DNA of 64,000 nt, taken from NCBI GenBank assembly GCA_947259335.1, contig CAMYMQ010000444.1, positions 1 to 64,000 on the forward strand, in the 5' to 3' direction. Within the stretch, counting starts at the first letter, position 1, and each line of letters opens with the position of its first letter. Position numbers and translations under genes: made by a program. This stretch comes from an uncultured Alphaproteobacteria bacterium. GTDB lineage: Bacteria > Pseudomonadota > Alphaproteobacteria > Bin65. Shown in pieces: positions 42,572 to 50,644 of this stretch. The notes below the pieces were generated by a model. It was not told the DNA's origin, did not search any database, and saw only the letters and a list, made by a program, of their open reading frames with translations.

Positions 42572-43540
42572 TCATGCTGCCTCAGCGAGATTGATCGGGC
42601 CGAAGCCTACCCGGTCCCAGTGCGTGTTCAGGAGGTCGCCGGTCGGCGTCGGCGGCGGGATCGTGCCGAGCTTGGGCATGTGCTTGTACAGGATCGTCGG
42701 CAGACCCTTGCCCTTGGTGACGTCCGCGCTCGCGGCCATGAGCCCATCCTGGACCCGCTTCGACACTGTGACGAAGAGCACGAGCATGTTGGGAAGCCCC
42801 GCCTGCTTGTAGGCGCCGCGCTCGCCGATGTCTCGATAGGCCAGGACCTCGCGGAGGTGGCTTTTCTGGTCGAGAGTCGAGCGAAGATACGGCTCGGTAT
42901 TCTGGTGCGCCTCGATCAGCAGCGCCCGGTACGCTTTTGTGCCGTGGCCGGTGTTCTCCAGCCCGGCGACGGCGTCCGGCGTGACCTCGAGCGTCTTGCA
43001 CTGTCCGTTGTGCCGGGCCGTTGCTCGCATGGAAAGACGCCCGTTCATCTTCCGATAGACCTCGCGCGGCGGCATGAACCGGACGTGGCGATGCTGCGCG
43101 GCGCCGATTTCCAGGTCCGCGATGATGTCGCAGATCTGGAGCGCGTGCGCGAGCGAGCGGATACCGTGCTTCCGTTCGCCGTGCCGAACGTCGCCGATCT
43201 CGTGATCGTAGAGCCCGGCCTTCTTGAGCTCGGCCGCCCCCTTCGGCTCCAGCTCATAGATGTCGTTGGTGTAGAGGTAGTTGTCATACTGGAACTGCTG
43301 GCGCGGCAGCTTCAGGTAAGCGTGGTGCCTGAGCAGCGCCAGCCGCGCGCGGAAGGCGACGTAATTGTGCGCCGCGCCGGTCCTGGCCTCGATCAGCCTG
43401 TGCAGGAAATTGGTTCGCAGGAACCGGTACTCCTGCAGGAGCGCGAAGACGAGTAGGTCCCGTTCCGTGATCCGCGGAACGGGCAACCCCCGTGGGTCGC
43501 GCGTCTTCTTCGGTCGCCGTTTGTGCACGCCATAGTCCAT
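42572..43540 (-). CDS. replication-relaxation-like (winged-helix) protein
   Basis: ITERDLLVFALLQEYRFLRTNFLHRLIEARTG...ARLALLRHHAYLKLPRQQFQYDNYLYTNDIYELEPKGAAELKKAG; 19 nt downstream of the HerA-like gene. Confidence 0.65.
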   Translation of the reverse strand: MDYGVHKRRPKKTRDPRGLPVPRITERDLLVFALLQEYRFLRTNFLHRLIEARTGAAHNYVAFRARLALLRHHAYLKLPRQQFQYDNYLYTNDIYELEPKGAAELKKAGLYDHEIGDVRHGERKHGIRSLAHALQICDIIADLEIGAAQHRHVRFMPPREVYRKMNGRLSMRATARHNGQCKTLEVTPDAVAGLENTGHGTKAYRALLIEAHQNTEPYLRSTLDQKSHLREVLAYRDIGERGAYKQAGLPNMLVLFVTVSKRVQDGLMAASADVTKGKGLPTILYKHMPKLGTIPPPTPTGDLLNTHWDRVGFGPINLAEAA

Positions 43541-43559
43541 GCGCGCACTGTAGGGGCTC

Positions 43560-45533
43560 CTACCAGGAAGGCGCAGGCTTTGTTGGGTCTTCTTCGGGTT
43601 CTACTGCGTCGGTATTTGGCGCGTTATGGTTCTCCATGTGCGCATCTTGCTCACGAATTTGTGAATAATGAACGGCGTACTTCCGGCGCATCTCGTCGCG
43701 GATTTCCGCGAACTGCTCGTCGGTCATGCGATCGAGGCCCTCCATGAGACCGAGCTTGGTCTTGTAGCTGAGCACCTCGCCCCTGAGCGAAATGGCGAAG
43801 CAGGCGCGCGGCTGCTTCTCGATATACTCGGGCGTGCAGCGCATTTCGGCCGCCATCGCGCGCGCGTCCCGGGCGGACACGCCGCCGGCCATCTTGATCG
43901 ACGTGTTGGCAGCAAATGCTTCCTGGAGCTTCGGAGAGAGCTGCCCCAGATACTGGTGCGCCATGATAATGCCGACGTTGTATTTCCGCGCCTGCTCCAA
44001 AATGAGCATGACGTTCTCGTCCAGGTAGTCCTGCGCCTCGTCAATATAGACGTAGCAAGGTGTCCGCTCCTCTGGTCGCAGCGCCGCCCTCTCCAAACAC
44101 GCCTGCACGATCATGGCGATAAAGAATCTCCCGAATATCTGGGAGCCGTTCTGCTTCAACAAGTCCTTGGAGGTCGAGATGAGGATCATCCGGCCTTCGT
44201 TCATCTCGGCAAATAGGTCGAGCTTGTTCCTGGGGTGAGAGAACATCCGCTCGAAGGTGCGGTTCTCCAGTATGCCCCACAGCCGCCGAAGAACCTGGCT
44301 CTTGGTCTGCTTGAACTCCCGGCTCTCGAACTCGGTCTCGAAGAAGGAGCGGGCGGTGCCGTCGAGCCGCTCGATATACGGCTTGTAGCGCTCGTAGCCG
44401 TCCGGCTCCATGAGGTTCCTGAACGTCTGGATGTTGGCATCCGGGATCTGGAGCATGAGCCGCATGATGTAGCGGAACAACGTGCCCTGCTTGGAGGTCA
44501 TCTCTGCGCCGAGCAAGGAACCGAACACGAAGTCGTACAGCTCGATGATGCCGTTAAGCATCTGCTCCTGGATGAGCTTGGAATATCCCCCGATGCGCTC
44601 ACGGTTCACGTCGAAAAGATTGAGGACGACGGGATACTCGATGTCCTTCGGCTCGATGAGGGTGAGCTTGTTCTCGAGCGCACCGTCATAGAACCAGCGC
44701 AGGCGCGAGATGTTGTTTATGAGATCACCCTGGCTGTCGATCACGATGACGCTCGCCTTGCCCTCGGCAACGGCGAGAAGATCGTAGGTGATGAAGTTCT
44801 GAATGGTCTGGGTTTTGCCCCACCCCGATCCAGCGACGATATGCTGATGCTCGAAACGCATCTGGTCGGGAACCGGGTACGGGAGGTAGGCATTAACGAT
44901 TGTCTCAAAGGGCGTGCCCCGTATCCAGAGCATCGGGTCACTTTTTTCATCCGGCATCTTCAACTTGTCGGGTCGGCTCTCCGCTTCCTGTCTGGTGATC
45001 TGCGAACCGGCAAGCGCGCCTTCGATGAGCTTTTCACGAAGCGGCTCGATAGAAGCGTCGAGTACAGGGTCGCCACGGACAAAGGTGTTGAACGCGGAGC
45101 CGTACATTAACTGCACATACTCCGGCAAATTGAGGGCATCGCCTACGGTAGTCGGGACGATTTGCGTTGTCTCTTCATTCGGGATGCGGTCAGCCAAGTC
45201 CTCGGAAAGGCTCTCGCATATAAGGTTGATGTAGGCGACAACTTCCGATTTGCGCTGGTACAGGTCATAGATGCGGTGAACGTCTTTAAGTTTTTCAGGC
45301 GGCCGGGTCAGGCCGCACAACTCGAACATCTCGCTGCGGAACTTCACGAAAAGATCGTGGAAGTGTTCAAAGGGCGGCAGGTCGTCTAGATCGAACTCGC
45401 CTATCTTCGAACGCAGCTTCTCCGGGTTGTTAGGCTTGGGAAGGATACGGTGAGGGTAGTTCTGGCGAACTTTTAGGTGGTCGAGTAAGCCGCCAAGTAT
45501 ACCGGGTACCGCATCCCAGACCTCATCGTCCAC
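43560..45533 (-). CDS. HerA/TraD-like ATPase
   Basis: EHQHIVAGSGWGKTQTIQNFITYDLL; VIVIDSQGDLINNISRL; PCYVYIDEAQDYLDENVMLILEQARKYNVGIIMAHQYLGQLSPKLQEAFAANTSIK; start could be GTG at 45533 or upstream at 45578. Confidence 0.88.
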   Translation of the reverse strand: MDDEVWDAVPGILGGLLDHLKVRQNYPHRILPKPNNPEKLRSKIGEFDLDDLPPFEHFHDLFVKFRSEMFELCGLTRPPEKLKDVHRIYDLYQRKSEVVAYINLICESLSEDLADRIPNEETTQIVPTTVGDALNLPEYVQLMYGSAFNTFVRGDPVLDASIEPLREKLIEGALAGSQITRQEAESRPDKLKMPDEKSDPMLWIRGTPFETIVNAYLPYPVPDQMRFEHQHIVAGSGWGKTQTIQNFITYDLLAVAEGKASVIVIDSQGDLINNISRLRWFYDGALENKLTLIEPKDIEYPVVLNLFDVNRERIGGYSKLIQEQMLNGIIELYDFVFGSLLGAEMTSKQGTLFRYIMRLMLQIPDANIQTFRNLMEPDGYERYKPYIERLDGTARSFFETEFESREFKQTKSQVLRRLWGILENRTFERMFSHPRNKLDLFAEMNEGRMILISTSKDLLKQNGSQIFGRFFIAMIVQACLERAALRPEERTPCYVYIDEAQDYLDENVMLILEQARKYNVGIIMAHQYLGQLSPKLQEAFAANTSIKMAGGVSARDARAMAAEMRCTPEYIEKQPRACFAISLRGEVLSYKTKLGLMEGLDRMTDEQFAEIRDEMRRKYAVHYSQIREQDAHMENHNAPNTDAVEPEEDPTKPAPSW

Positions 45534-46176
45534 GCTTGCGTCTCCAGTACCACCACGCCCAGCCCCAGAATATGGCAACCCAGATCAGGAGGCCCGTTGC
45601 TGGCGAACCAGGTTCGTTGATTGCCACCGAAATTGTCACGGCCAAACACACACCCCCAGCGACGATCAGAAAGAGCAAAAACTTGACACTGCCAGTGAAG
45701 GTTCCAATGCGCAGGGCAGCGCCGGACTGGTTCGTGATACGGTCGGCGTCCTTCGCTATCTCAATGTTGTTTGGCTCTAGCTCGGCGGCTTTCGTGGCTG
45801 CTCTCACCGCCGCCTTCTTGTTTCCGCAGCCGAGATGCAGTTGGGCCAAAGTCATGTAGAGGTTCGCATTGGTTGGGTCATAGTCTATGGCACGGTCCAG
45901 AGCCTTCAGACCTTTTTGGTGTTTACCCAACAAGCCAAGGGCTGTGCCCTCCAGACGCAAAATCTCGGCACGCAGTCTCGCGGCAGTTATTTCGCGTTCT
46001 TCACCACCCTCGTGGATGAAGTCATACTTCTCACCGTCATCCTGCACCTTCTTCATCTGCCGAGCTGCCAGCCCGACGTTCTCAAGAGCCTCGGCATAGT
46101 TGTCTACACGCATATGCTGCTGTGCTTCTTGCACGTAGGATATGGCGATCTGCACCGCCCTTTGTGCATCGGTCAT
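45523..46176 (-). CDS. TPR-repeat protein with two C-terminal TM segments
   Basis: KHQKGLKALDRAIDYDPTNANLYMTLAQLHLGCGNKKAAVRAATKAAELEPNN; VKFLLFLIVAGGVCLAVTISVAI and LLIWVAIFWGWAWWYW. Confidence 0.85.
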   Translation of the reverse strand: MTDAQRAVQIAISYVQEAQQHMRVDNYAEALENVGLAARQMKKVQDDGEKYDFIHEGGEEREITAARLRAEILRLEGTALGLLGKHQKGLKALDRAIDYDPTNANLYMTLAQLHLGCGNKKAAVRAATKAAELEPNNIEIAKDADRITNQSGAALRIGTFTGSVKFLLFLIVAGGVCLAVTISVAINEPGSPATGLLIWVAIFWGWAWWYWRRKRGR

Positions 46177-46721: not shown

Positions 46722-47124
46722 GAGGTGAAACTATAGTGTCATCGACACGGACGAAGATCATTGGATTCCAACACTGCCGCTGCCGCAAGTTGTTGGAGGG
46801 CGCCGACGTCGAAGCCAAGTATAGTGACTCAACTATCTGTTTATGTTAGACTTCCGAGGTATCGGAGCGGATGTTCCCAGCGGACATAGCCTGCGGAATT
46901 GCTCGTAGCCTCGGAGGGTACCGTGAACAGCCTGAATTTGGAGATCAAGAGCCACACACCACTCCTATTGCGTAGGGCTGAAAAAATGCCCCAGGTGGGC
47001 GACAAGGAAATCACTGCCAACATGACAGTGGTGACAACTCCAAATGCTCGGCCGGAAATGCACGATCAAATTAGCGACGCAACTGCGCCCCGGCGAGACT
47101 GACGAGCTCGATCAGTATCGCGTC

Positions 47125-48117
47125 TTATAAACTCTCCAGCATCTCCGCCACCGCCTCCGGAATGCGGAGGCCGGCGTATTGCTGCAACCATTGCCATTGA
47201 CCGGCCGGATTTACTTCAAGAAACACGAAATCCTCTTCATCCGTCTCAATCATATCGATTGCCCCATAACAAAGTCCGATCTTGTCCATGAAGGAGATGA
47301 GCTTATTCTTGATGCCGGAAGGGAGATCTACTTCTTTGTGTTCAACATTATCAAAATCGTAGTGTCGCCAATCCACTTTTGTTATCTGGCTTGCTTGAGA
47401 ATCTATGCGACACGCTAAGGTCTTCTTGCCAATTATCATAACCCGATACTCGTAGCGCTTCTCGACATACTCTTGTGCAAATATCGGACAAGTTTGGATC
47501 GCCTCGTGCGCATTCGAAAGATCATCAGTTTGAAACTGTTGAGAATAGATAAAATGATCATCGCCATGACCAAGCTGTGTATGAGCAAGCGTCTTCAATA
47601 GAAGGCCGTTTCGTTCCAACGAAAACTCTATCGCGCGGCCCGCGTCATTTGTTATTAGTGTTTGTGGAACCAGCAGGCCGCAGCTCGCGGCGATCCCTTG
47701 TTGGTAAAACTTGCTAGTTTCAATGCGCTCGATCGTTTCAGAGTGGTTTACCCAATTGCATTCCAACGAATCGAGGATTGACCTGAGAGCAACAGAGGCC
47801 TCTGCGCGAGCGAAGCGGGTCTCTAGCTCACCCAAATCGGAGGCCGGGATGGGGGCGGCTGCTCTCAAATACCATGCTGTATCGAAATCTCTAAGATTCA
47901 TGATCTTGGATTTGCTTTGCCCGCTAATGAAACAGTCGACCGCTATCGAGCCAGTGATGGCGCCAGCCGAAGTCATCGCCAAGACTATGGTCTGCTCCTT
48001 TGGGAAACGTGAAGTGTCAAAGATGTGAATTCTGACAGCCCGATCTTTGCAGGCTTCAACGAATGGCTGCCAATAGTAGTTCTGGCTGGCATCCGTTATG
48101 AATAGAATGTTCTTCAC
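47125..48117 (-). CDS. ATP-grasp ligase of the MvdD/graspetide-synthetase type
   Basis: WYLRAAAPIP...E...WVNHSETIERIETSKFYQQGIAASCGLLVPQTLITND; ATP-grasp C-terminal DMIETDEEDFVFLEVNPAGQWQWLQQ. Confidence 0.8.
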   Translation of the reverse strand: MKNILFITDASQNYYWQPFVEACKDRAVRIHIFDTSRFPKEQTIVLAMTSAGAITGSIAVDCFISGQSKSKIMNLRDFDTAWYLRAAAPIPASDLGELETRFARAEASVALRSILDSLECNWVNHSETIERIETSKFYQQGIAASCGLLVPQTLITNDAGRAIEFSLERNGLLLKTLAHTQLGHGDDHFIYSQQFQTDDLSNAHEAIQTCPIFAQEYVEKRYEYRVMIIGKKTLACRIDSQASQITKVDWRHYDFDNVEHKEVDLPSGIKNKLISFMDKIGLCYGAIDMIETDEEDFVFLEVNPAGQWQWLQQYAGLRIPEAVAEMLESL

Positions 48118-48138
48118 TCACGTTTTCCCTATGTCGCA

Positions 48139-48678
48139 TCAACGAGCGTTTGTTCTGCTATCCTTCGTGAGCTGAGCTTCCATGGCCTGCAATTCTTTGA
48201 GGCAAGGTACGGAGAAGCGGGCACGTGTGCGATCGCTAGTGCGTTTGTCATAGGGAAAGAGCTTCATCTCCCAATCACTTGCCTTCTTGCTGCTTGATGA
48301 TTGCTGCACGGGCCTATACTGAGTGCCGAATTTCTGTTTCTTACCTTGCAAAACTAGCATCCGGTCAGTAGCGGCAGCGCACAACCACAATGTAGAGTCA
48401 GTCTTGTCCATTTCTGAAGCTTTGCAGGCTAAATCGCGGGCAAGAATGTTGTCCTCTTCGGCAGTTCCATGGTGCATAATCATTGCGGCATTGTAGTAGT
48501 CTTGGGTGGTAACGACGCCCCTTCTAGATAATATCGATCGGACCCGCTTTCGACGACGATTGTCGTGTTGTGTAATTCGCTCTAAATCGCTCGGCCCAAT
48601 TTGACCCTCACGTTCTTGCTGATCCTCTTTAAATAACTGAGCAAGCTCTACATTGTCGTAATTTATTCGCCCTTTCAT
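48139..48678 (-). CDS. DUF6624-like protein, operonic with ATP-grasp ligase
   Basis: VTTQDYYNAAMIMHHGTAEEDNILARDLACKASEMDKTDSTLWLCAAATDRMLVLQGKKQKFGTQYRP; 21-nt gap to ligase gene. Confidence 0.65.
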   Translation of the reverse strand: MKGRINYDNVELAQLFKEDQQEREGQIGPSDLERITQHDNRRRKRVRSILSRRGVVTTQDYYNAAMIMHHGTAEEDNILARDLACKASEMDKTDSTLWLCAAATDRMLVLQGKKQKFGTQYRPVQQSSSSKKASDWEMKLFPYDKRTSDRTRARFSVPCLKELQAMEAQLTKDSRTNAR

Positions 48679-48931
48679 AAGCCATAATAATATTGTCTAG
48701 TAGATTCACATTATACCACATTCATGCATTATGGGTAGGGTGTCAGTGATATTGGTTTGGCCTCCTTGGATGAAGGTTCTTTGAGCGATTGTGATTCTTC
48801 GGAATTTGGCAACTAGATAAATTCGAATTGTCGAAACAGCGTTTTCGATCGGCGAAATATGATTTCAGGTCCTTCTGATAGCCACTTGAAATTGGAGCCA
48901 CATCGACCTCTCCCGCGATCTTGAAGGTGAA

Positions 48932-48953
48932 GGGGCCGGATCGCTCCGGCCCC
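48932..48953 (-). terminator. hairpin, probable terminator of AlpA-like gene
   Basis: perfect 9-bp stem GGGGCCGGA-tcgc-TCCGGCCCC. Confidence 0.5.
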
Positions 48954-48959
48954 CCGCTC

Positions 48960-49178
48960 CTAAGAAGGAGTCGTTGCAACGTACGTGCGTTGCGCGATGC
49001 GGTGTTCTATCCACTCCTCTACTTCCTCCGCGACCCACGCCACCCGGCATTGGCCGAGCGTTACCCGCTGGGGGAATTTGCCTGCCTTCTCCAGGCGCGC
49101 GATGTGCTGAGGCGAGTAGGGAATGCCGTAGTCCACCACCAACTGCTTCTTAGTTACCAGTCTGCGACGCTTATCCAT
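48960..49178 (-). CDS. AlpA-like helix-turn-helix regulator
   Basis: LVTKKQLVVDYGIPYSPQHIARLEKAGKFPQRVTLGQCRVAWVAEEVEEWIEHRIAQR. Confidence 0.82.
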   Translation of the reverse strand: MDKRRRLVTKKQLVVDYGIPYSPQHIARLEKAGKFPQRVTLGQCRVAWVAEEVEEWIEHRIAQRTYVATTPS

Positions 49179-49221
49179 CACGATACTCCTTGTCGGGAGC
49201 ATCGCGATGCTCGGTTGCACA

Positions 49222-50361
49222 CTAGTGAGCAGTGCTACCGTAAGACGGGTTCTCCTCAGCGTCAATCAGGAGCTGTTCTAGCCAAGACTCATGCTCGGCA
49301 AGCGCCGCCCGCTTCTCAGCAAGACGGTCGTACCGGTCATAAATCTCGTCCAGAACGCTTGGCGCGTGATTGAGCAATACCTCTGCCGTGGCCCGATCGA
49401 CGCCGATGCGCGGCATGGTCGACCGGAACGTCCGGCGGACATCGCGTATCTGCCAGTCGGTCACCCCGGATGTCTTCTCCAGCTCACGCTTCATCTTGCC
49501 CCATGAGCCGTCATTTAGGTGCGTTTTCGGGTCGCGGCCGGGAAAGAAATACGGACCGAGATTGGGCTGTTCATCCAAGAGGGCGCGCGCCATCGGCAGG
49601 AGCGGGATCGCATGGTCGCGGCCGTTCTTGGTATGCGAGCCAGGAATCGTCAGCAGGTCGTCGGTTATCCAGTCTCGTCGGATGGCCGCCGTCTCGCCGC
49701 GTCGCGTGCCCCAGAGGATCAGCAGCTTCACCATGACACCCAAAGAACCCTCGCCTGCGTTCCAGAGCTTCACGAGTTCCATATCGGTCAGCACACGGCT
49801 CCGCTTCACGTCCTTGCCGGGCGCTTCGTATCCGTCCATCGGCGAGTGCCTGATGTAGCGGCGCGGCGATCGGATGCACCAACGCAGGAAGCAGCGGAGG
49901 ACACGATAAGCGTGGAGCTGTTCGGAGGGTCGGTCAGCGAGCTTGTCGAGCTCCCGCTCGATATCGGCGTCGGTAAGTTCGTGAAGCGGCTTGCGGTAAA
50001 GAGCGGCGAAATGCTTGTCGAGAAGACGCTTCGCCTCCTTTTTGGTTCGCGGCTTCGCGTCCCGGTAGTTCTGCTCGATGAAGCTCTCCTGAGCGTCGGC
50101 GAAAAGGATCCTTGGTTCGGCCGCTTCCGGCTTGGCGGCAAGGCGTCGCCTCGCCTCCTCTCGCGCCTCGGCGAGCTTCATCTCAGGGTAGTGACCGAGC
50201 GTGATGCGCTCGCGACTCTCGCCGCGCATCACGGTCCACGTCTTCCGGCGTTTGCCGACCCGAATGCCGAAGCCCGTCGTGGCGTCGTCCCAATAGGTCG
50301 TGCTGGTTGCGGTGGGCTTCAGGGCCCGGACCGCGATATCGGTGAGGTGCAGGCGAGGCAA
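49222..50361 (-). CDS. tyrosine recombinase/integrase (DUF4102-type arm-binding domain)
   Basis: LTDIAVRALKPTATSTTYWDDATTGFGIRVGKRRKTWTV; LLILWGTRRGETAAIRRDWI; IRDVRRTFRSTMPRIGVDRATAEVLLNHA. Confidence 0.93.
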   Translation of the reverse strand: MPRLHLTDIAVRALKPTATSTTYWDDATTGFGIRVGKRRKTWTVMRGESRERITLGHYPEMKLAEAREEARRRLAAKPEAAEPRILFADAQESFIEQNYRDAKPRTKKEAKRLLDKHFAALYRKPLHELTDADIERELDKLADRPSEQLHAYRVLRCFLRWCIRSPRRYIRHSPMDGYEAPGKDVKRSRVLTDMELVKLWNAGEGSLGVMVKLLILWGTRRGETAAIRRDWITDDLLTIPGSHTKNGRDHAIPLLPMARALLDEQPNLGPYFFPGRDPKTHLNDGSWGKMKRELEKTSGVTDWQIRDVRRTFRSTMPRIGVDRATAEVLLNHAPSVLDEIYDRYDRLAEKRAALAEHESWLEQLLIDAEENPSYGSTAH

Positions 50362-50500: not shown

Positions 50501-50542
50501 TCAGCTTGGGAAGCTGACGTTCTACCACTGAACTACACCCGC
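50501..50542 (-). tRNA. tRNA-Gly(CCC), 5' portion only (apparently interrupted)
   Basis: minus strand GCGGGTGTAGTTCAGTGGTAGAACGTCAGCTTCCCAAGCTGA = acceptor 5' strand, D arm and anticodon arm; no T arm or 3' acceptor strand follows. Confidence 0.8.
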
Positions 50543-50644
50543 GCAGCGCTCCTTCCGGAAGCTTTGGGGAATATGGACCGGGGCTGCAAAGAGTGCAATC
50601 CGCAGGATGGCGCCAAACCGGATCGGGCCGCGCGGCAGCGCCCG

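Follow-up and report, generated by a model that had tools for sequence, protein, structure and literature searches.

Graspetide pathways of several kinds have been described, and the association of their ligases with DUF6624 proteins is already known (Carter et al. 2026, PMC13097080). The microviridin ligases MdnB and MdnC (PDB 5IG8, 5IG9) and the chryseoviridin ligase CdnC (7MGV) have been solved, and the leaders of their precursors carry a P-hydrophobic-hydrophobic motif. Carter et al. found DUF6624 to be highly frequent in graspetide groups 18, 20, 23 and 42 and raised the possibility that it is a type of biosynthetic enzyme not yet discovered. Ligases and DUF6624-type proteins likewise occur together in the candidate-phyla branches 1 and 2 and cluster 23 of Makarova et al. 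(2022, PMC8939145), the last of which is probably the same family as DUF6624. Branch 1 has the core signature TxxxTx(6-10)Dx(1-4)D, and many of the candidate-phyla loci in that study had no identifiable precursor. Partner-dependent graspetide synthesis is also known in other systems (PMC13097080); in the rosaritide system a SurA/PpiC-like protein, MirC, stands beside the synthetase.

We analysed a 64,000-nt stretch of an uncultured alphaproteobacterial genome (the window; GenBank contig CAMYMQ010000444.1) and located a locus that very probably encodes a small pathway for a ribosomal peptide. The likely reading is a graspetide pathway of minimal size, borne by an integrative element as cargo and made up of a precursor, an ATP-grasp ligase and a DUF6624-like protein, the last a candidate partner or tailoring factor. 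The window ligase shares its fold, overall length and conserved ATP-grasp residues with MdnB/MdnC and CdnC, at 24-27% identity in fold alignments, and the leader motif is common to the precursors. The system differs from these in having its own core (TVVTT...PEMHDQ..D), a convergent precursor gene and a DUF6624-like protein. The branch 1 signature is present in the window core; however, unlike the groups of Carter et al. and Makarova et al., the window system is the cargo of an integrative element in another phylum and has a convergent precursor family. As in the rosaritide system, a second protein accompanies the synthetase, with possible partner dependence, although the candidate partner is DUF6624-like. 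Four proteobacterial loci (L018, L019, L023 and L024) encode homologous ligases with roughly 27-32% identity to that of the window, but in them the same-strand gene immediately upstream encodes a TKTxxQExDDD repeat precursor, a gene for a membrane protein lies downstream, and DUF6624 is absent. A directly upstream precursor, often with repeats of this type, is found in several proteobacterial relatives, whereas in the window the DUF6624-like gene occupies that place.

Table 1 Features of the graspetide locus and its host element (window coordinates).
Feature	Coordinates	Strand	Remarks
Mobility module	42572..45578	-	Replic_Relax protein and VirD4/TraM-like coupling ATPase; paralogues on contigs C266 and C296
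Replic_Relax protein	42572-43540	-	Pfam PF13814, 6.8e-9
VirD4/TraM-like coupling ATPase	43560-45578	-	Weak PF10412 match
TPR membrane protein, element backbone	45523..46176	-	Pfam TPR_2, 5.4e-11; outside the cargo; also in both paralogous copies
Inserted cargo	46756..48929		2,174 bp, 48.6% GC; no genes besides those for precursor, ligase and DUF6624-like protein; missing in L207 and L208
Predicted graspetide precursor, 59 aa	46923..47102	+	Leader TPLLLRRAEK, core TVVTTPNARPEMHDQISD; GTG start; longest open frame from TTG 46899
Graspetide-type ATP-grasp ligase (macrocyclase), 330 aa	47125..48117	-	GTG start, AGGGA upstream; profile, sequence and fold matches
DUF6624-like protein, 179 aa	48139..48678	-	ATG start; no obvious signal peptide; divergent; homology to DUF6624 relatives
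AlpA-type excisionase/regulator of host element	48960..49265	-	Pfam PF05930, 4.1e-9
Tyrosine integrase of host element	49222..50361	-	Pfam PF13356, 1.9e-12; PF00589, 7e-7

The initial annotation had described two same-strand genes 21 nt apart, in an AT-richer patch and in an accessory slot between mobilization-like genes and an integrase. Both ORFs are present as described, on the minus strand, and the motifs it quoted are found in the sequence. The GC content of the cargo compares with 61% for the window, and the pair is flanked by the VirD4-like/Replic_Relax module on one side and by the AlpA and integrase genes on the other. The third gene, that of the predicted precursor, lies just beyond the region then considered and was overlooked. 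That the slot is an accessory one is borne out by two more copies of the element backbone in the same assembly (L207 and L208, on contigs C266 and C296), whose VirD4-like proteins are 87% identical and which both lack the graspetide cargo. The sequences flanking the cargo (window 46755 and 48930) are directly joined in L208 and lie 16 nt apart in L207, thus delimiting the insert and its three genes. No transporter or peptidase gene was found in the 2.2-kb cassette. The assembly is an incomplete metagenome-assembled genome (75.6% complete, 3.1% contamination), and strain mixing is therefore possible. At its integrase end (window 50501-50543) the element borders on the 5' half of a gene for tRNA-Gly(CCC). 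An intact gene for this tRNA occurs on contig C323 (L173, 604-678), followed by the motif TTTGTCTCTTTTTTGTCTC, which is also present beside the window integrase.

A ligase of the MvdD/graspetide type had been proposed for the downstream gene of the pair, and profile, sequence and fold comparisons agree on this point. The best NCBIfam match of the ligase is TIGR04187 (2.1e-61), followed by MvdC (1.4e-55) and MvdD (3.8e-52). None of the three reaches its curated cut-off: for the equivalogs, MvdC scores 188.7 of the required 425 bits and MvdD 177.5 of 475. By sequence, the closest solved relatives are graspetide ligases (5ig9 at 3.3e-33, then 7m4s, 5ig8 and 7mgv). An AlphaFold2 model built from a ten-sequence alignment (pLDDT 87.1) was used for a Foldseek search, in which MdnC, CdnC, AMdnB, PruB, MdnB and PsnB came first (5ig9 at 5e-29), with LysX and RimK later. 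These rankings identify the enzyme as a graspetide-type ligase, though as no equivalog of any named one. The sub-threshold profile scores, together with weaker RimK and MptN matches, would also suit a RimK-like or other amino-acid ligase that modifies a host protein or metabolite. We give this reading very little credence, as the graspetide ligases stand above RimK and LysX in both the sequence and the fold searches; moreover, a precursor of leader/core type is conserved alongside the ligase. In a 136-row tree the window ligase pairs with full support with a ligase from a Candidatus Paceibacterota genome (L039; Minisyncoccota), its closest relative at 46% identity over the full length. The wider placement of this pair among candidate-phylum ligases is weakly supported. 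The nearest relatives of the locus are very probably found in ultra-small candidate-phylum bacteria. Since the genomes were drawn from separate phylum samples, we infer that the window host belongs to a different phylum from L039.

At L039, a small opposite-strand ORF lies just beyond the ligase stop codon, and its window homologue is the precursor ORF, which converges on the ligase and ends 22 nt past the ligase stop. The two products share 30 of 60 residues (BLASTP 2e-16), with a Smith-Waterman score of 128 against a maximum of 45 across 2,000 shuffles. Nucleotide differences fall 16/8/37 at codon positions 1/2/3, indicating that the protein is under selection. Shine-Dalgarno sites precede both starts (GGAGG before the window GTG, AAGGAGG before the L039 ATG). 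Two further ligases of the window type (G1026 and G906) came from the 247 genomes searched within the L039 order, each accompanied by a convergent ORF of this precursor family; in the G1026 assembly one stop codon interrupts the ligase gene. A convergent precursor homologue therefore accompanies 4/4 window-type ligases found, from the window and three Minisyncoccota genomes. All four precursors have the leader P-[LI]-[LM]-L-R-R, which in the window is microviridin-like, and the core M-T-[VI]-V-T-T...P-E-M-[HG]-D-Q-x-x-D, supplying the combination of leader and Thr/Ser/Lys plus Asp/Glu core expected of a graspetide precursor encoded with its ligase. In a scan of 10,911 small ORFs (with overlapping loci counted), the core pattern was confined to these four loci. 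A same-strand precursor was also sought in 48679-48960, where only implausible short ORFs occur. For the precursor, no match in plasmids or phages rose to significance, and scans of viral contigs for ligase, precursor and DUF6624 showed no linked system. The product of the convergent ORF is probably the substrate of the ligase, and would be the small unannotated ORF that the initial annotation had allowed for.

The other substrate considered there was the 179-aa protein itself, whose resemblance to DUF6624 we recover only indirectly. The window protein has no Pfam match and falls short of the gathering threshold of PF20329 (DUF6624), yet three of the relatives aligned with it do match that family (best 2.7e-21), and it retains their invariant H, DR, Q, G, Q and R positions (H70, D105, R106, Q115, G118, Q120 and R152 in a nine-sequence alignment). 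It thus belongs to a wider DUF6624-like superfamily. Its AlphaFold2 model (pLDDT 88.8) shows a helical repeat-like fold with a beta hairpin. Fold searches with this model gave no significant match; TPR proteins were among the nearest PDB matches. A binding or partner role for the protein seems slightly preferable to a catalytic one. Its gene does lie directly upstream of the ligase, the place of the precursor in many relatives, as would be expected were this protein the substrate and the small ORF incidental. However, the protein is conserved, predicted to be folded and widespread without ligases, and has no repeated Thr/acid core. At other loci DUF6624 adjoins a separate precursor-like ORF, and the small ORF is conserved with the window-type ligase across phyla. 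We consider it highly improbable that the DUF6624-like protein is the substrate.

The pairing of DUF6624 with a graspetide ligase recurs elsewhere and is strong in Minisyncoccota. Across 384 genomes of this phylum, DUF6624 was found in 10/15 genomes with a strong ligase match (E below 1e-20) as compared with 19/369 others (Fisher p=2.8e-9), and 10/12 of the DUF6624 copies in those 15 genomes adjoin the ligase. The gene order varies (upstream, downstream or convergent), which favours functional linkage over simple inheritance. At several of the ligase-linked loci a precursor-like ORF adjoins DUF6624, and the linked forms have no obvious signal peptide. There is about an even chance that the window protein assists the synthetase, as its partner or as a tailoring protein. 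A sizeable minority probability attaches to a precursor and ligase that make the graspetide by themselves, the DUF6624-like protein serving in immunity or leader processing or being unrelated cargo. No DUF6624 gene was found beside the other three window-type ligases, and in L039 the DUF6624 gene accompanies a second ligase, some 3 kb away from the window-type set, so the protein may be dispensable for this subtype. In addition, numerous members of DUF6624 carry a signal peptide and lack a linked ligase (for cluster 23, probably the same family, PMC8939145), and no ligase lay next to the DUF6624-like genes seen on plasmids. Against this stand the strength and layout independence of the Minisyncoccota linkage, the absence of an obvious signal peptide from ligase-linked forms, and, in the window, the gap of 21 nt between the two genes and their joint presence in one insert.

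Several loci outside the window-type set were recorded during the survey. The second set in L039 (1249-2980, minus strand) is unrelated and consists of a precursor-like ORF, the second ligase, DUF6624 and then a NUDIX-like ORF. In an alphaproteobacterial metagenome-assembled genome (L095:4815-6520, plus strand) a ligase is directly followed by a DUF6624 gene whose product has an apparent N-terminal signal peptide. An IMG/VR phage-like contig (L165:3035-3577, plus strand) carries a lone DUF6624-like gene adjoined by two acetyltransferase-like ORFs, with no ligase. An ORF of L193 that appeared TPR-like by eye was rejected, having neither a Pfam match nor similarity to the TPR protein of L194; a TPR neighbour is claimed for L194 only.

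In the proposed mechanism, the ligase would recognise the 59-aa precursor through its leader and phosphorylate acidic side chains of the core, namely the E of PEM, the D of HDQ and the D three residues later. The activated acids would then be joined as esters to conserved Thr residues of TVVTT, giving up to three Thr-to-Asp/Glu crosslinks and a mass loss of at most 54 Da. In graspetide clusters generally, side-chain ester or amide macrocycles are installed on the core. The DUF6624-like protein and the ligase are probably translated from one message, and the former would most likely act in the cytosol, not as a substrate of the synthetase but as its partner or as a tailoring protein. With no transporter or peptidase gene of its own, the cassette would depend on host functions for export of the product, which may be biologically active.

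The precursor family, its convergent placement and a mobile three-gene cassette spanning phyla were not found in the literature, supplementary lists aside, and appear to be undescribed. A precursor placed like that of the window would escape an upstream, same-strand search; given the many candidate-phyla loci with no identifiable precursor (PMC8939145), small ORFs in convergent orientation offer a definite target for such searches. A bolder and rather doubtful reading is that a convergent-precursor graspetide subtype was transferred, as a self-sufficient cassette of 2.2 kb, between candidate-phylum bacteria of ultra-small size and a larger bacterium from a different phylum, with the TPR-like DUF6624 protein as an obligate partner of the synthetase. 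If so, partner-dependent graspetide biosynthesis would have a second structural class. Set against two empty slots in the same assembly, the insert marks out three genes as a minimal set, one compact enough for direct tests of DUF6624 function. A further arrangement was seen on a Burkholderia stagnalis plasmid (L021:2367-3935, plus strand), where an M43-type metalloprotease ORF (PF05572, 8.3e-16) with C-terminal Thr/Asp-rich repeats directly precedes an MvdD-like ligase and possibly encodes a protease with a graspetide tail.
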